Assembly (NCBI RefSeq): GCF_000317515.1
Contig: NC_019738.1
Location: 1,091,501 to 1,155,500, forward strand
Direction: 5' to 3'
Length of the DNA stretch: 64,000 nt
From: Allocoleopsis franciscana PCC 7113
GTDB taxonomy: Bacteria; Cyanobacteriota; Cyanobacteriia; Cyanobacteriales; Coleofasciculaceae
A program made the translations under genes and the position numbers. How positions within the stretch are numbered: position 1 is the first letter of the stretch; each line of letters opens with the position of its first letter. The notes below the pieces were generated by a model. The model was not told the origin of the DNA. It made no database searches and saw only the letters and a program-made list of their open reading frames with translations. Below are positions 7,015 to 15,057 of the stretch, in pieces.

Positions 7015-9000
7015 TTACCAAAAGTAACCCAACTCGGCGGTGGTTTGACGCTTGCTGGGGTCGTATTTCAAGAGATACTCCCGTGCGATCGCGTCTGCTT
7101 CTCTCAGGCGTTCGACTTCGGTTTTACCGATTTCAGTGTCGGTAGAAAGCAGTATCACTTGATGGGAGGCGGCGGGGAAGTAGCGATCAATCAGGTTAGT
7201 GCGGTGGGAGGAGTCGAGGCGTCCGAGGGGTGTGTCGATTGCGATGGGGAGGTGGCGTCCGGATACACGGGCGAGTCCCCAGAGAAATGCGATCGCAAGT
7301 AGCTGTTTTTCACCGGCTGAGAGGCGATGTTTGGGCACGAGTTGTCCGGAGAGGTCGTATAGGGAAAGGCTAAAGGTAGTCGTATCAATCGCTACTCGAT
7401 GCACTAAGTCAGATTTGTGCAGGAGATAACGGAAACACTCTGTTACTTCTATTTCTAATTTGTTCAGTTTTTTGAGGGTTAATCGCTCTTTAAAGAGTTT
7501 GAGTGTAGCTTGGACTTTGGCGGCAGAGGTGATGATATGCTGATTATTTCTTAGTTTGATGTTGTCTTCAGCATAGTCTTCTAAGCCTTGTTTGGTTTTT
7601 GCGATCGCCCGTTTTAATTCCTCACAGCGGCGATTGACGCTTTCATAGGTGGCTTTGGCTTTTACGACTTCGTTTTGTGCCTCTTTAACCGCATTTTTCA
7701 ATTGTTCGTAGGCTTCAGGCGATGCAGCCGTAGCAATTTGTCGGTCTAAAAAATCAATTTCAGTTTCAAGTTCTTTGAGCTTTTCCTGTTTTTTATTGGC
7801 TTTATATTGGCTGTATTTTAGGTCATGTTTGAGGAGATTTTCTAGTTGAGTTAGAGCCTCGCTATCAGCCAGTAACCAGGGTTCTTTGTTCGCAGCAATT
7901 TCTTGTGCAAGTTCTTGATTTTCTCCATCTAGGAAGGTTTTAATTTTCTCTCTTGTTTTAGTGTTTAATTTTAATTGGCTAATATACTCTAATAGGCGTT
8001 GATCGCGCTCTTTTAAGACATCCTGTGCCATTTGCCGCTGAGTAATACGGCTTTCTGTTTCGGCTTGGGATTGAGCTTGAGTAATAAGGGGTGAAATTAG
8101 AGTTAAAGGCAAGGCACCCGCTGCTAATTCTCTCATTGCCTGACGGGTGTCGTCTGCTTGTGCGGTTAGGTCTTTGTATTGGCTTTGGAGTAGGTTGCGA
8201 TCGCTAGCAATTTTACCGCCTTCATAGATGAATTTTTCCTGAGCCAAACGCTGTTGTTCTTCTGCACGTTGTACTTCGGTATTAAGACCAGATAATTCTT
8301 GAGTTGCTGCTTCTAATTCGTCTTTTTGTTGATACAGTTTTTGTTCAATTTCTTCTAAAGTTGCAATGTCTTTAGCGCTGGCAATTTCCCTACGTTTGCG
8401 GCTGACTAGAATATCTAAGTCCGTTGATAGGCGTTCTGCTAATTCTAAGCCTAATAGGGATTGAATGGCTCCAACCACAAGAGGGGGTGGTGTTTCGAGT
8501 TCAGCAAGTTCTTTAACTTGTTCACCGTCGAAGAGAAATAGGTTGGAAATTCCTAACGGGAGTAAGTTTTCGATATACTCATCCCAAGTATTGGCGAGGG
8601 CTTTATCAGGCCATTCTTCATCAATGAGGACACCTAATGTATCTTTGCCATCTTTAGGGTCTGTTGTCCAATATCTGACCACTCTTAAGGTAGTCGGTTT
8701 ATCCTCTTGGATGACTTCAAAGGCTAATTCTATTCGGGCTTTTTCTGTGGGTGGTGTATTGCGGTTAACACACTGAGTCAGGAAGTCGGAATAGCTTAAA
8801 TTGCCGCGTGTGGAACATTGGGCGCGAGAACCATAGAGGGCGAGGCGAATGGCGTCCATGAGAGTTGTTTTGCCGCCGCCATTCATGCCGCCGAATAGGA
8901 TAATGGGGCGAGTGGTGTCATCAATTTCTGGGCGTAGATTGATAACTTGTTTGCCTAGGTATGGGCCGAAATTTTGCAGGACGAGTTCAAGGAATATCAC
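7015..9000 (-). CDS. dndD: DNA sulfur modification ATPase DndD (SMC/Rad50-like)
   Basis: 661 residues. Walker A is GGMNGGGKTT (37-46). A long coiled-coil middle (about 190-500) follows; I see no CxxC zinc hook. The C-terminal lobe has the ABC signature LSAGEKQ and Walker B AIDTPLGRLD. This is the DndD layout: an ATPase acting with DndC and DndE to place sulfur in the DNA backbone (phosphorothioation). It is downstream of dndC on the same strand, but 223 bases separate the two and a repeat sits in between, so it may have its own promoter. No dndE follows; the next gene is the opposite-strand XRE gene. Confidence 0.9.
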   Translation of the reverse strand: MIFLELVLQNFGPYLGKQVINLRPEIDDTTRPIILFGGMNGGGKTTLMDAIRLALYGSRAQCSTRGNLSYSDFLTQCVNRNTPPTEKARIELAFEVIQEDKPTTLRVVRYWTTDPKDGKDTLGVLIDEEWPDKALANTWDEYIENLLPLGISNLFLFDGEQVKELAELETPPPLVVGAIQSLLGLELAERLSTDLDILVSRKRREIASAKDIATLEEIEQKLYQQKDELEAATQELSGLNTEVQRAEEQQRLAQEKFIYEGGKIASDRNLLQSQYKDLTAQADDTRQAMRELAAGALPLTLISPLITQAQSQAETESRITQRQMAQDVLKERDQRLLEYISQLKLNTKTREKIKTFLDGENQELAQEIAANKEPWLLADSEALTQLENLLKHDLKYSQYKANKKQEKLKELETEIDFLDRQIATAASPEAYEQLKNAVKEAQNEVVKAKATYESVNRRCEELKRAIAKTKQGLEDYAEDNIKLRNNQHIITSAAKVQATLKLFKERLTLKKLNKLEIEVTECFRYLLHKSDLVHRVAIDTTTFSLSLYDLSGQLVPKHRLSAGEKQLLAIAFLWGLARVSGRHLPIAIDTPLGRLDSSHRTNLIDRYFPAASHQVILLSTDTEIGKTEVERLREADAIAREYLLKYDPSKRQTTAELGYFW

Positions 9001-9223: not shown

Positions 9224-10849
9224 CTAACTATCTTCATCATCGATTTTGATATCGTCTGGCTTTGAAGATGAGAATTTAATACTTGCCCAATTTAAATTAA
9301 GCTGCTTTGCTTCTTCACCAGCGCATTCCTCAAACTTTTGTCTAACCTCGTGAATTTCAGCCCTATCATCTTTTAGAGCTTTGACTGTATTTTTCAAGTT
9401 TCTTTGATAGTGAGCATTTTCAATTGCTTCATCCTTAGAACGAGAACTGCTGGCAAAGCATTTATCCAGGCTGTCGTAGATGCCGCGCCGGGATTTGGCG
9501 TGATACTGGCTTTCTGTGTGTAGCAGTCTCGCCATGAGTTCTAGGTGCATTTCGTCGTCACAAATTTCGTTTAATACTGTCCACTCATCGGTACCTAGCA
9601 GTTTCTTTTCTGCACTGGGACGAGAATCTTGGAAGGGTTCGCCTGTAACTTCTTCGTAAATGCGGGGTAAACTGTCGTCGAACTCGTGCTTTTCTTCTAA
9701 CCAAATGCGGCGAATTTCACTGAGTTCTTCATGGGTAATTAGGGTGATATCCCGCATTTCTGGGGGTGCGGTGCGGCGAACTTGGGTTTGTGCTTCTAAG
9801 ACTCGCCTTAACCAATGTTCCCGCCAGTATTTAGTATAGGGGCCAGGCATTGGTTCAACAGAGATGGCACCGTCAACATTGCGTTCAAAAAGTTCGACTC
9901 TACCATAGATACGGCGGAAGTCTCTTTTAGGGCGATCATCCTCAACATCCAAGTCATTACGGATATCGAGTAGAGGCTGCATCCATTCTTTCTCCTCATC
10001 ATTTTGGATCATCGCCTCCATTGATTTATCCTTATCAACCATCGTGCAAACCCAACAACCAAAACGAGAACTGCCACAGCTAGGGGTAGAAGTATCTACC
10101 ACTAAGGGGCATTCATTATCTGCTGTTGCACCTCGATACATAGTAAATAAATCTTTGTTGCTATATCCCCAAGGATTTTGCCACTGATTTAGGTAAATCC
10201 AGACTTCATCAGTGCGCCAGTCTTCTATAGGGAGATAAATTAGAGAATTAGGGCGGTTGGGATTAGTGTTGAGGCGATCGCGCACCCGCCACTCTCTATG
10301 TTTAGCCATTGTTGCAGCGCGTTTAACGCTTTCAGCCGTCCGAGTACCTAGAACAAGAATTACTTCACCGCTATTTCTAATTACTTCACGAATAAAAGAG
10401 TCAGCAGGCTTAATTTTTAGGCGTTCAGTACACCACCTGAAACGATTTCTAGGTGCTGGATAGCCTTTGCCCATTAAGCATACCCAGAATGTATCTTTAA
10501 CTGCCGGATATGTTAGATGCGTCTCTATTGGCATTCCCTGTTCTTGGGCAGCAGTTTTCATTTGATCTAGGGATTTGCGTACCCAGGCAGAGACAATCGG
10601 GTTCTCTACGAGCGTATCATTTGTAATTACATAGATTGTCTTGCTTCGTTTTTCTTGTGGCAGAGCTGCGATCGCGTTCCATACAAGCTGCAAGACACAC
10701 GTACTATCCTTCCCGCCACTCCAGCCAATGACAATCGGTATGTCGTCTTGACAATATAACTCTTGGATTTCTTCAGTTAGTTTTTGTATATCTTCCACTA
10801 ACTGCTCAACAGTGCGCTGTGGAAATAGTGAAATCTGTGTTTCTGTCAT
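9224..10849 (-). CDS. dndC: DNA phosphorothioation sulfurtransferase DndC
   Basis: 541 residues. The start is the ATG at 10849, not 10864: it overlaps the HNH gene stop as ATGA and has GGAGG 8 bases upstream. It is a PAPS-reductase-like ATP pyrophosphatase with P-loop SGGKDS (44-49) and a downstream cysteine set in CPLVVDTSTPSCG and FGCWVCT, the likely iron-sulfur ligands of DndC. DndC activates the DNA phosphate and transfers sulfur received from a cysteine desulfurase (DndA or IscS). No desulfurase is present in this window. Length and motifs are normal. Confidence 0.94.
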   Translation of the reverse strand: MTETQISLFPQRTVEQLVEDIQKLTEEIQELYCQDDIPIVIGWSGGKDSTCVLQLVWNAIAALPQEKRSKTIYVITNDTLVENPIVSAWVRKSLDQMKTAAQEQGMPIETHLTYPAVKDTFWVCLMGKGYPAPRNRFRWCTERLKIKPADSFIREVIRNSGEVILVLGTRTAESVKRAATMAKHREWRVRDRLNTNPNRPNSLIYLPIEDWRTDEVWIYLNQWQNPWGYSNKDLFTMYRGATADNECPLVVDTSTPSCGSSRFGCWVCTMVDKDKSMEAMIQNDEEKEWMQPLLDIRNDLDVEDDRPKRDFRRIYGRVELFERNVDGAISVEPMPGPYTKYWREHWLRRVLEAQTQVRRTAPPEMRDITLITHEELSEIRRIWLEEKHEFDDSLPRIYEEVTGEPFQDSRPSAEKKLLGTDEWTVLNEICDDEMHLELMARLLHTESQYHAKSRRGIYDSLDKCFASSSRSKDEAIENAHYQRNLKNTVKALKDDRAEIHEVRQKFEECAGEEAKQLNLNWASIKFSSSKPDDIKIDDEDS

Positions 10850-11880
10850 AGCTGAAACCTCCATTTTTTACGATGCCATTTAAGTGATTCACGGCTTGGA
10901 TAATATTTGCCTGGATCGTATTTTTTTGTATCCGGTAGGAGGATATCTTCGCCGTGAAAATCTTTCATTTTTCGCGTATGTGGCGATTCTTCTTGTAAAT
11001 CAGTAGTAATAATGATCTTGTAATTATCAGTTAAGCTAAACCATCCTTTATCAAAAGCCCAATGATGATTTTTACAGAGTGATATTCCATTAGTGATTTC
11101 ATTGTTAAATGATATTGCGAATGGTTCAATGTGTGCGCCATCTACAATGTTTTGATTCAGAGAATTGCTCACTTTCAATCTACAGAAAGCACATTTATAA
11201 TCATAAATTCCTACAACGGCTTTCCCAAAAACTACCTCTCTAGCGGCGGACTTCCTAAAATAAAATTTTTGGGCTAGTTTGTCAGATTTTTTTAACTTTT
11301 TTATTTCTTCTTCTATAAAACTTTGGAATGATTTATTAGCTTTTAAAAGATATTCTGTTTTATCTTCGCCGATATCTTCACTTGATGTAAACCATTTTGA
11401 CACAAGAGTATCGACTAATTCCTTTCTTGAATCGTTATCCTGCAACAAATTAAATAGTTCCTGATCTATATAAGCATGGTTTACATAATTTTTTAGTTGC
11501 TTAATTGATTTTCTTATTTTTTCATTTATTAGTTTTTTGTTTGATGAAATATCACGATAATATTCAGCTTTGTAGTCAAGATGCCAAAATTGATGTTCTT
11601 CATTTTGCAAATGAAAAAATGGCATTGACAAACTACTATCAAAACTTCTGTCAGGACTTAAAATATTTCTATATTTATTGAATGTAGTTCGTAATTCTTC
11701 GGTGATATGAATATGATTAGCTTGAATTAAACCTTCTGCAATTAGATCGATTACAGATAAAAGCAATATCGGTTGGTAGGGAGCCTCTCCCCTTTCAGTT
11801 CTATTTACATTAATCTCCTTAAAACACTGACGGTAGTATGCTAAGTCTCGCTGGTTTCCTGGCTCTTGTTCTATACTCAT
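10846..11880 (-). CDS. HNH endonuclease with predicted phosphorothioate-binding N-terminal domain
   Basis: 344 residues. The N-terminal about 150 residues (YYRQCFKEI..GEAPYQPILLLSVIDLI) resemble the sulfur-binding domain of phosphorothioate-dependent McrA-type restriction enzymes. The C-terminus is an HNH nuclease: CAFC pair, GAHIEPF, and NGISLCKNHHWAFDKGWF. It overlaps dndB upstream (ATGA at 11877-11880) and dndC downstream (ATGA at 10846-10849), and both junctions have strong GGAGG-type ribosome sites. It is therefore translated as part of the dnd operon. This placement is odd, because enzymes of this type are known to cut phosphorothioated DNA. Nuclease family certain; sulfur-binding assignment by resemblance only. 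Confidence 0.85.
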   Translation of the reverse strand: MSIEQEPGNQRDLAYYRQCFKEINVNRTERGEAPYQPILLLSVIDLIAEGLIQANHIHITEELRTTFNKYRNILSPDRSFDSSLSMPFFHLQNEEHQFWHLDYKAEYYRDISSNKKLINEKIRKSIKQLKNYVNHAYIDQELFNLLQDNDSRKELVDTLVSKWFTSSEDIGEDKTEYLLKANKSFQSFIEEEIKKLKKSDKLAQKFYFRKSAAREVVFGKAVVGIYDYKCAFCRLKVSNSLNQNIVDGAHIEPFAISFNNEITNGISLCKNHHWAFDKGWFSLTDNYKIIITTDLQEESPHTRKMKDFHGEDILLPDTKKYDPGKYYPSRESLKWHRKKWRFQL

Positions 11881-12974
11881 TTCTCCCTCCCCACATCAAC
11901 AAGAGTATTCTCTAACCCTTCCTCCTCCAACGTTAGCGCCAAACCCAAAAACCCCTTAATGTAAGCCGTCATCCGACTCACACTAATTTGAGACTGAGAA
12001 ATCCCCCCTTTAGACATAATTCGCCCTTGCCAATCCGGATTAGAACGCGACCAATCAATTCGCGCCAGTCCCGCCAAATGTTCCTCCCAACCATCCGGGT
12101 AAATCGATAACAGACTTGCCCCCACTCTACCCAATCCTGTAAGCGCGATCGCATGACAATGCACATAATCCCGGCGCATCTCGCTTGCAGCTACTTTTTT
12201 CTGTAAAACCATCTCCCAATCTGGCATATAGCGCGTTACCGCATTCCAGTATCCAGCAGCAAGTTCAATCTGCTCGTTCACCTCAGCATTCTGACCATTA
12301 GCAAGCAGGGCAAGGGTAGCATTATAGATGCTGCTGAGCGTAAATAACTTACCCGAACGACTCGGCAGACTACTGCGTTCCATATCCGTCAGCGTCCGAA
12401 ACACCGGAACTTCCTTAATCACCGCCCTAACTAAACTCGCCCTCTCATCCCGGTGGTCATAAAGTATTGTCAGCGATGGATCGAGAGGGACAGGATAACG
12501 GTTCAAATCCAGACACATCTGTTGCGATCGCTTCAACCCAATATCCAAAAACAGGATAAGTGCGATCGTCTCATACCCCAATTCTGGCTTCTCTTGCAAC
12601 GCCAGTTCAAACGCCGCCCGCCGATGTTCTCCATCATGAATCGCAAACCGCGCATCCATCGGCACCCTCAACCGTCCAATCTTTCGCGCCTCTGCCTCCG
12701 TACCAATCGGTTCAAAGGTAATATCCGCATCAATCGATGCCGTAATTGCTGAGAAAGTATAGTCCTTGCGATTGTCCAGAATATATCGCGCAATTTCCGG
12801 AACGCGAGTCTTATTCGACGTGCGCCGCGCCCTCATTTCCGGCAGCACTTCCTGATCATTGCCAGCGAACAGCTTCGGGATATACCGCGCTGGACACATA
12901 GAGATGTAATATTCGCGCCCTGCTTGAATCCCTCGGATGACGGGCAAGACGTACTCGAAGGAGGGAATAGCCAT
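11877..12974 (-). CDS. dndB: DndB, DGQHR-family protein of the phosphorothioation operon
   Basis: 365 residues from an ATG. The DGQHR-type motif appears as DGEHRRA at 114-120 after MDARFAIH, as in canonical DndB. DndB is not required for sulfur insertion; in studied systems it modulates modification frequency and can repress dnd transcription. It is the first gene of the run dndB-HNH-dndC and overlaps the HNH gene by four bases. Its start faces a repeat-rich 480-base region shared with the divergent second DndB-type gene. Confidence 0.92.
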   Translation of the reverse strand: MAIPSFEYVLPVIRGIQAGREYYISMCPARYIPKLFAGNDQEVLPEMRARRTSNKTRVPEIARYILDNRKDYTFSAITASIDADITFEPIGTEAEARKIGRLRVPMDARFAIHDGEHRRAAFELALQEKPELGYETIALILFLDIGLKRSQQMCLDLNRYPVPLDPSLTILYDHRDERASLVRAVIKEVPVFRTLTDMERSSLPSRSGKLFTLSSIYNATLALLANGQNAEVNEQIELAAGYWNAVTRYMPDWEMVLQKKVAASEMRRDYVHCHAIALTGLGRVGASLLSIYPDGWEEHLAGLARIDWSRSNPDWQGRIMSKGGISQSQISVSRMTAYIKGFLGLALTLEEEGLENTLVDVGREK

Positions 12975-13270: not shown

Positions 13271-13458
13271 CGTAGCGACTAATGGGGGGATAGCTAAAAC
13301 CATATCTTATCTTGACATAATCGCTTTTGTCTGGTAGTGAAACAAGATGCAACCCTGTAACTTAAGTATGATACATCAAATGTTTTTAAAAACCTCACTT
13401 GACATCAAAATATCTGATTGATAGTTTTTTAAAACCACCTAAACGTCTTATAAACCCC

Positions 13459-15057
13459 ATGAACAGCGCCAACAACCCGAAGGCTGACATCGCCAGCCAA
13501 ATCCTGGAACGCGAAAACCAGGAGAGACAGGCGCTGGCACTCCTACTCGATAGACATCTCGCCCGCAACGACCAACTCATCGTCCAAAAAACCCAAATGG
13601 GCGCAACCGAAGCTTTTATCGGTTCCGTCACCTTAGAATGGCTTGATAGTCGCGTTCGCTTCGCCTCTCAACTCCCCCTTTTCCGGCAAAAATTCGACCC
13701 CCAAACCGACAACGTTGTCAGAGATGAAGAAACCATCGATGAAATTCTCCAACGTCCCCTAGATTGGTCACGTCAAGCCTCTCTCACCCAGTATTTAGCC
13801 GCCCGGAAAGCGCATAAGTTTCCCGCCGTTTTAGTCGTTCACAGCCCTGCGTGGGTAGATAATCCCAAAGCGCCTGAATGGGATAAAAATGGACGCGCAC
13901 TCAAATCTGCTGCCGATTTCACACCCCTGGACAAAAACGAAACTGTTGGACTTTTAGATGTCTCTGAAAACGTCTCAATCTTCGCCCTAGACGGTCAGCA
14001 CCGACTGATGGGAGTCCAAGGTTTAATGACATTACTCAAAACAGGTAGACTCCAGCGCTACAACAAAAATAAAAAGCCTGTAGGTAGTGTAATTACCAGT
14101 GACGACCTCATCGAGGAGTATCAATTAGACCCGGCTTACCTGCAAAGTTTAGCCCATGAAAAGATTGGCATTGAATTTATTCCCGTAGTTGGCAAAGGCG
14201 AAACCCGCGAAGAAGCACTGCGGCGAGTCCGTTCCATCTTTGTCCATGTCAACCTCATGGCATTACGGTTAAGCAAAGGACAACTTGCCCTACTCAATGA
14301 GAATGATGGCTTTTCCATTGTTGCCCGAAAAATTGCCGTCAGCCATCCTCTCTTAAAAGAAGTGGCTGGTCGAAATCCTCGCGTTAATTGGGATAGTGCC
14401 ACCGTTGCAACCAAGTCAACCGTCTTAACCACTCTGCAAGCGCTTGATGAAATGTCTGAGCGGTATTTGGAACACAAATTCCCTCACTGGAAACCTGCCG
14501 AAAAGAAAGGTTTAATTCCCATGCGCCCAGAGGATGAGGAACTTGAAGAGGGAATCGAAGCCTTTACCCAACTCTTCAACCATTTATCTAAGCTACCCAG
14601 CTATCAAAGACTAGAAGCTGGGGAAGAAACACCTCAACTGCGCCGTTTCAGCTTTGAAAAGAATGGAGGTGAAGGAAATATTTTGTTCCGTCCAGTGGGT
14701 CAAGTTGCCTTCGCTCAGGCACTGGGAATTGTAATATTTCAAAAAGGATTATCTCTCAAAGCAGTTTTCAAAAAACTCCAAAAGTACGATGTGGATGATG
14801 GATTTAGTAGCATGGAAAATCCGCAGTCTCTGTGGTACGGCGTTTTGTATGACCCGAATAAAAAGCGGATATTAGTTTCCGGCAGGGATTTAGCAGCGAG
14901 GTTGTTAGTTTACATCATTGCTGGTACAGAGGATGACATGGAGCGTGCGGAACTGCGCCGAGAGTTAGCCCAAGTGAGAACGATTGAAGGTAAAGCTGTG
15001 GGATTTAATGGCAAGTTTGTTAATCCAAGGGATGTAGGACTTCCGCCAGTGTTGTAA
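13459..15057 (+). CDS. Second DndB/DGQHR-domain protein
   Basis: 532 residues from the ATG at 13459; a TTG 60 bases upstream is in frame but less likely. An exact DGQHR motif sits at residues 178-182 (FALDGQHRLMG) after a conserved-looking region with VVHSPAW. It is far longer than the dndB product (365) and shares only the motif context, so it is a paralogue rather than a duplicate. It is divergent from the dnd operon and flanked on both sides by related palindromic repeats. A role in regulating or specifying the Dnd system is inferred from family and position; DGQHR proteins also occur outside Dnd systems. Confidence 0.82.
   Translation: MNSANNPKADIASQILERENQERQALALLLDRHLARNDQLIVQKTQMGATEAFIGSVTLEWLDSRVRFASQLPLFRQKFDPQTDNVVRDEETIDEILQRPLDWSRQASLTQYLAARKAHKFPAVLVVHSPAWVDNPKAPEWDKNGRALKSAADFTPLDKNETVGLLDVSENVSIFALDGQHRLMGVQGLMTLLKTGRLQRYNKNKKPVGSVITSDDLIEEYQLDPAYLQSLAHEKIGIEFIPVVGKGETREEALRRVRSIFVHVNLMALRLSKGQLALLNENDGFSIVARKIAVSHPLLKEVAGRNPRVNWDSATVATKSTVLTTLQALDEMSERYLEHKFPHWKPAEKKGLIPMRPEDEELEEGIEAFTQLFNHLSKLPSYQRLEAGEETPQLRRFSFEKNGGEGNILFRPVGQVAFAQALGIVIFQKGLSLKAVFKKLQKYDVDDGFSSMENPQSLWYGVLYDPNKKRILVSGRDLAARLLVYIIAGTEDDMERAELRRELAQVRTIEGKAVGFNGKFVNPRDVGLPPVL

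Follow-up and report, generated by a model that had tools for sequence, protein, structure and literature searches.

An HNH nuclease with a sulfur-binding domain encoded beside dndC in cyanobacteria: matched type switching with a segment of DndC points to a probable restriction partner of the Dnd system

Results

We analyzed a window of 64,000 nucleotides from Allocoleopsis franciscana PCC 7113 (contig NC_019738.1, positions 1,091,501 to 1,155,500), in which a gene for an HNH nuclease with a sulfur-binding domain (SBD) lies between dndB and dndC, two genes of DNA phosphorothioation (PT). As judged from sequence comparison of related cyanobacterial loci, the SBD (the putative reader of PT) and a middle segment of DndC (the putative writer) have switched type together at least 11 times. 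The most likely explanation of this pattern is that the motif recognised by the SBD is the PT motif of the host itself. We put at roughly 0.52 the probability that the nuclease acts as restriction partner to the cyanobacterial Dnd system, its SBD reading that motif and PT sparing the DNA. The features that carry this argument are the following, in window coordinates:

10846..11880, minus strand: SBD-HNH nuclease gene, 344 amino acids (Pfam, NCBIfam, PDB and fold matches; ATGA at each end)
11401..11856, minus strand: SBD, residues 9-160, with pocket Y35, Q36, M86, P87 and H90 (PDB 8h0l by sequence and predicted fold)
11509..11547, minus strand: type-specific SBD loop, about residues 112-124 (profile alignment to the ScoMcrA base-contact loop S187RGRR191)
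10849..11244, minus strand: HNH nuclease domain, residues 213-344, with CxxC 230/233, H250, N264 and H273 (Pfam HNH_2, invariant residues, TagI/VcaM4I-like fold)
10235..10537, minus strand: DndC residues ~105-205, the segment that switches type along with the SBD (partial correlation up to 0.71)
10433..10465, minus strand: DndC specificity loop GYPAPRNRFRW, residues 129-139, triad R-N-R (equivalent of E. coli B7A DndC 135-145)

The SBD and a DndC segment switch type together

In pairwise distances over 39 loci, the HNH protein followed DndC (partial r 0.415, p 0.001) but neither DndD nor the DGQHR protein, the usual neighbour in related dnd loci, whose position varies. When the proteins were split by domain, the signal was found between the SBD and DndC residues ~105-205, where 20-residue windows reached the correlation given above, and the HNH domain gave a value of about 0. 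In a permutation test of the SBD against this segment, none of 4999 permutations exceeded 0.23 (observed value 0.64). With the DndD distance removed, the same pair gave a partial r of 0.62-0.66 (0.62 with 51 loci); DndE and the rest of DndC gave 0.1-0.27 under this control, and the HNH domain 0.11-0.13. DndE, considered as a specificity determinant tracking the SBD, was rejected (r 0.10, 43 loci).

Mapped on the DndD tree, the type label of the SBD (A, as in the window and L070, or B, as in L051 and L010) needs 13 changes, the same number as shuffled labels, and at least 11 of them are forced by supported branches. The DndC type agrees with the SBD type in 51/51 of these loci, with no mismatch. 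Among pairs of loci whose DndD proteins are at least 85% identical, both labels had switched in 44 and neither in 106, and a single pair was discordant. The A/B split was drawn after the clusters had been seen, which is not the case for the distance statistics and the replication. For the latter, a further sample of 29 non-identical linked loci showed a type match in 28, these loci coming from the same taxonomic order as the first set and being not independent of it. Altogether, 97/99 loci fall into two matched reader-writer types. This switching argues for a match between reader and writer within this clade.

The switching can be followed in mosaic loci. Between L070 and L051, identity is 98% for the HNH domain and for the DGQHR protein, 95% for DndD and for DndE, and only 39-58% for the SBD; within DndC it is 86% at the N-terminus, 45% at residues 156-206 and 81-94% in the C-terminal parts. 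At the DNA level these two Nostocales loci show two divergent islands around ~2.4 kb that is mostly 95-99% identical, and the same two-island pattern was found again, at somewhat lower identity, for L037/L057 and L012/L024. Since the islands flank near-identical DNA, transfer of a single block cannot explain co-switching in Nostocales, and simple block transfer was rejected there as its cause. In the Microcoleus pair L007/L056, of opposite types, where the HNH gene directly precedes dndC, one transferred block spans both the SBD and the DndC segment.

The specificity loop of the window DndC falls inside the co-varying segment. For the E. coli B7A loop GYPAPTRSFRW (residues 135-145), Fu et al. 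(2025; PMC12193691) predicted insertion into the DNA major groove and control of the PT motif by the triad of the loop, and mutations support this. In our loci, type A carries the triad R-x-R in 21/22 cases and type B mostly R-x-K/G/T. The published rule, by which R-x-K/R would suggest GpsGCC (PMC12193691), was not relied on, both types fitting it in part. On the reader side, the SBD loop is of the GGRPQT or KIRKS kind in contrast to an xLQPKT-like kind. A search by sequence returned no solved relative of DndC.

The protein combines a sulfur-binding domain with an intact HNH domain

By sequence and by model, residues 9-160 are an SBD fused to an intact HNH domain. SBD-Hga (PDB 8h0l) matches these residues with an E value of 6e-15 by sequence and 2.7e-25 with the family profile. 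An AlphaFold2 model of the protein (predicted local distance difference test, pLDDT, 84) compared by Foldseek also matched 8h0l (E 5.9e-7, target template-modelling score 0.85), and its C-terminus resembles the HNH nucleases TagI and VcaM4I. The original prediction had likened the N-terminal domain to ScoMcrA; its assignment as an SBD holds by sequence, profile and fold, ScoMcrA itself being only a weak match (0.011). Pfam HNH_2 scored above its cut-off at residues 230-283. Neither Pfam nor fold comparison revealed an SRA domain or an NTPase, including the DUF262 DGQxR NTPase, in this protein.

The hydrophobic S-pocket pattern (H/Y-K/R/Q plus aromatic/aliphatic-P) is satisfied by Y35-Q36 and M86-P87. 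Among 78 aligned family members, position 36 is K or Q in all 78 and P87 is kept in 76, and H250, N264 and H273 are kept in 77-78. The Y-Q pair is the same as in SprMcrA (PMC7470945), and the M-P pair occurs in the EcoWI-like L111, whose pocket is HK and MP. The gene is single-copy in the Allocoleopsis genome, and its ratio of nonsynonymous to synonymous substitution rates (dN/dS) against the nearest relative, L001, is 0.12 (SBD alone, 0.08). A degenerate pocket or a dead nuclease was rejected on the conserved residues and this dN/dS value. With pocket and active site both conserved, the paradox of a self-damaging enzyme, raised by the original prediction, is real. Membership in the EcoWI-type family NF045808 (PT-DNA_restrict) was rejected, the window protein scoring 102.9 bits, below the curated NCBIfam cut-off of 180.

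The main clade is linked to dndC, and the DndFGH marker is absent from the cyanobacterial genomes scanned

A scan of a genome collection gave 80 loci related to the SBD-HNH gene, every one of them cyanobacterial. In 76 of them, dndC follows downstream in the same orientation, and three of the other four are contig ends; chance gene order was rejected on this linkage. Two arrangements prevail among the linked loci. In 36, the HNH gene stands directly before dndC (at most 100 nt away), frequently with dndB upstream; in 34, one antisense DGQHR gene lies between the two; the remainder show different spacing or a broken gene. Just upstream of the HNH gene, dndB was found in about 15 loci. The dndC-linked members form one clade of 72 rows (support 100, on a tree built by a quick method), next to a basal group in which Pseudanabaena-type and plasmid-borne forms are mixed. 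Linkage to dndC holds in the main clade wherever the contig permits the check. Neither outcome named as refuting the original prediction occurred: the N-terminal domain is related to SBDs, and the dndC order is conserved.

At about six loci of the main clade (L014, L062, L079, L136, L179 and L232), stops or frameshifts disrupt the nuclease gene next to an intact dndC; the clade showed no intact nuclease beside a broken dndC. This one-way loss fits a nuclease that depends on modification or is dangerous without it. Intact nucleases with a broken or absent dndC do occur in the basal group, and intact nuclease and intact dndC stand together at about 100 loci.

DndFGH, the restriction module of Dnd systems, is a multi-subunit translocating nickase, in contrast to the single SBD-HNH protein of the window. 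Among 291 cyanobacterial genomes, its marker TIGR03237 was over cut-off in none, and it was absent from the window's genome (G000); DndFGH was therefore rejected as a hidden partner. The same absence is reported in PMC8569181. In this set, DndC was over cut-off in 73 genomes, almost all in the window's taxonomic order, and DndE in 74; because dndC is near-universal in that order, presence/absence statistics within it say little.

Operon layout in Allocoleopsis

The neighbouring genes of the window are:

11877..12974, minus strand: dndB, regulator of the modification genes (TIGR03233, 443.7 bits, cut-off 328)
9224..10849, minus strand: dndC, DNA phosphorothioation sulfurtransferase, start MTETQ (TIGR03183, 692 bits, cut-off 290)
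7015..9000, minus strand: dndD, SMC-like ATPase, GTG start (TIGR03185, 693 bits, cut-off 246)
13399..15057, plus strand: divergent DGQHR-domain protein, a DndB paralogue (TIGR03187, 182 bits)

On the same contig and strand, dndE lies ~24 kb away (G000:C1:1078057-1078386), so that the PT writer genes covered by this check, dndBCD in the window and dndE, are in one genome. An ATGA joins the dndB stop TGA (11879-11877) to the HNH gene start ATG (11880-11878), and another joins the HNH gene stop TGA (10848-10846) to the dndC start ATG (10849-10847), given the internal start MTETQ. We chose this start as the mechanical one, 15 nt upstream, would swallow the Shine-Dalgarno sequence. Good Shine-Dalgarno sequences precede both starts, for the HNH gene GTTGATGTGGGGAGGGAGAA before ATGAGT and for dndC AAAAAATGGAGGTTTCAGCT before ATGACA. 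The predicted placement of the gene between dndB and dndC, with overlaps on each side, is thereby borne out. That the nuclease is made together with the modification genes does not hold in general, the Nostocales loci having an antisense DGQHR gene before dndC. Tight overlaps at both ends of the HNH gene were found only in the window and in L001; one-sided or near-overlaps occur in L002, L003, L006, L007, L009 and L030.

Related loci outside the main clade

A sister SBD-HNH clade (L193-L213; plasmid loci L103-L110 and L113) is often plasmid-borne and mostly unlinked to dndC. A dndC gene is present elsewhere in 17/20 of its host genomes, some of which also have a linked gene; PT-type readers therefore live in hosts with PT genes. 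SBD-only reading frames adjoin SBD-HNH genes at G164:C2:748043-748513, G011:C1:841929-842405 and G413:C27:2136-2615, possibly as split or decoy readers. On a Candidatus Chlorohelix plasmid (L107, 7911-15038), an SBD-HNH gene of Chloroflexota and a dndBCDE-dndB cluster are convergent, which shows that SBD-HNH accompanies dnd outside cyanobacteria too. On a Picosynechococcus plasmid (L105), an SBD-HNH gene lies near dndD, dndE and a gene annotated as 'phosphorothioation-associated methyltransferase', with no annotated dndC; it may be a non-PT modification module. Four dndC loci without SBD-HNH (L114, L116, L119 and L122) have a DndD-like ATPase, which carries a CxC motif, flanking the dnd cluster, some also a 157-amino-acid protein and a DndB-like protein, and these flanks resemble the CxC/Pbe module. 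A second DndD-like match was present at some SBD-HNH loci.

Discussion

We propose that DndC-D-E would write PT at a motif picked largely by the middle of DndC, and that the SBD of the HNH protein would recognise this same motif. Reading PT would keep the nuclease off the chromosome, by parking, releasing or inhibiting it, and invading DNA without PT would be cut or nicked, which would make the nuclease a defence enzyme. A change of specificity would come about by joint replacement of the SBD and the DndC segment. The SBD fold and pocket residues, the dndC linkage and the dndC-linked clade, the position of the DndC specificity loop in the co-varying segment, the matched switching, the mosaics, the replication, the 0/291 count for DndFGH and the one-way nuclease loss support this proposal. 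We see an even chance that the SBD and DndC ~105-205 are exchangeable matched target-recognition modules for one PT motif, a type IV reader having been inverted into a self-sparing enzyme; cyanobacteria would then repeatedly switch PT specificity and leave DndD, DndE and the nuclease domain in place. Of the options offered by the original prediction, we favour inhibition by the enzyme's own modification and replacement of DndFGH.

Several observations weigh against this proposal. Its weakest step is the direction, PT sparing rather than triggering, which we favour although PT acts the other way on the characterised SBD-HNH relatives (EcoWI, Mae9806I and others), stimulating them (PMC7461809). 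An NTPase such as those of SspE and DndI, which could give the release seen there, is missing from the window protein. Within type A no co-variation was seen (r -0.18) and within type B it was weak (0.21), so that the claim of matching concerns two broad types. The only SBD/DndC mismatches, L041 and L149, belong to one Microcystis lineage (for L149 the genus follows from its shared genus label) and have an SBD of type A but a DndC segment of another kind, with triad RRG. Own-motif avoidance or a protein contact between SBD and DndC could also drive matched switching.

The direction could be reversed: as in SspE, own PT read by the SBD would activate the nuclease against unmodified invaders and leave it inert without PT. 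The matched switching fits this equally well, and the Y-Q hydrophobic patch of SspE (Y30, Q31; PMC9646914) echoes Y35-Q36. In the SBD-HNH relatives, PT stimulates the enzyme and truncation of the SBD frees a non-specific nickase (PMC7461809), and relief of autoinhibition by PT would therefore be native to this architecture. However, SspE needs GTPase-driven release from self-DNA, for which the window protein has no domain, and the PT-stimulated relatives cleave next to PT, which in this host would mean cutting the chromosome; we regard this explanation as unlikely. The same PT-dependent cleavage (PMC7461809), together with reading of the self motif, would suit a suicide effector that aims the HNH domain at own PT sites and is restrained until infection by DndB, DndCDE or the DGQHR protein. 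Rakesh et al. (2024; PMC10853773) name suicide action as a possibility. Yet no candidate inhibitor is a conserved adjoining gene in all loci, and with nuclease and dndC both intact at ~100 loci the restraint would need to be very tight, which makes such an effector quite unlikely.

A type IV enzyme, cutting PT in non-host motifs and changing its SBD only to avoid the host's own, would agree with all characterised SBD-HNH enzymes, which restrict incoming PT-DNA (PMC6224610, PMC7461809), and with the unlinked, partly plasmid-borne sister clade whose hosts mostly carry dndC elsewhere. Such an enzyme stands alone, uncoupled from dnd, and needs no dndC linkage, yet dndC lies downstream in 76/80 loci; avoidance moreover predicts many reader-writer combinations rather than two matched types. 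Since the SBD switches in step with the DndC specificity segment, sensing of foreign sulfur patterns, another option of the original prediction, appears improbable. Co-variation alone cannot tell a shared DNA target from a protein interface, and the SBD might instead bind the DndC segment for immunity or docking. But the segment holds the predicted major-groove loop with its mutational support (PMC12193691) and the base-contact loop of the SBD is type-specific, so that we consider direct protein matching very improbable.

The proposed restriction partner can be compared with known systems. The PT-dependent SBD-HNH enzymes EcoWI, SprMcrA and Mae9806I (Lutz et al., 2020; PMC7461809) likewise have two domains without SRA, the same pocket positions and an intact HNH domain; they are not dnd-linked, whereas the window gene adjoins dndC and its SBD co-switches with DndC. 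In that study, less than 3.6% of SBD-HNH homologues were near dnd, and linkage to dnd genes of the same specificity was judged hazardous and not to be expected (PMC7461809). Dnd-associated SBD(wHTH)+SAD(SRA)+HNH proteins from 698 taxa have been proposed as alternative restriction components to DndFGH (Rakesh et al., 2024; PMC10853773), and, like the window protein, they are SBD-HNH nucleases encoded with Dnd genes. They are described as three-domain proteins encoded mostly downstream, and the considered sections of that paper describe no cyanobacterial clade, matched switching or DndC specificity assignment. In IscS-DndBCDE-DndI, a single HNH nuclease is, as proposed here, the Dnd partner and PT releases DndI from self-DNA (Tang et al., 2024; PMC11662687), but DndI is a DUF262-DUF1524 protein with ATPase and an unrelated PT reader. 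In SspABCD-SspE, as proposed here, the modification operon includes an HNH nuclease that senses PT, with a hydrophobic Y-Q patch (Gao et al., 2022; PMC9646914), but SspE has a GTPase domain, and Ssp modifies one strand only, through another writer.

Both SBD-HNH nucleases associated with Dnd and the paradox of self-damage have been described before; what appears new, as far as a partial literature search reaches, is the clade and its matched co-switching. Dnd systems that stand alone, lacking DndFGH, are common, and it is uncertain which protein serves them as restriction partner; PT-dependent SBD nucleases had been considered incompatible with Dnd. The present comparison of sequences points to the operon nuclease as a restriction partner that would tell self from non-self DNA, rather than a self-damaging accident. 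If this is true, matched switching names the cyanobacterial restriction partner and resolves the paradox, and it gives an evolutionary map that would place Dnd sequence specificity in DndC ~105-205 and not in DndE or DndD. The loci offer reader-writer pairs from nature that can serve in swap experiments and in typing PT motifs, and the system would represent a PT restriction-modification class with a compact two-gene specificity system.

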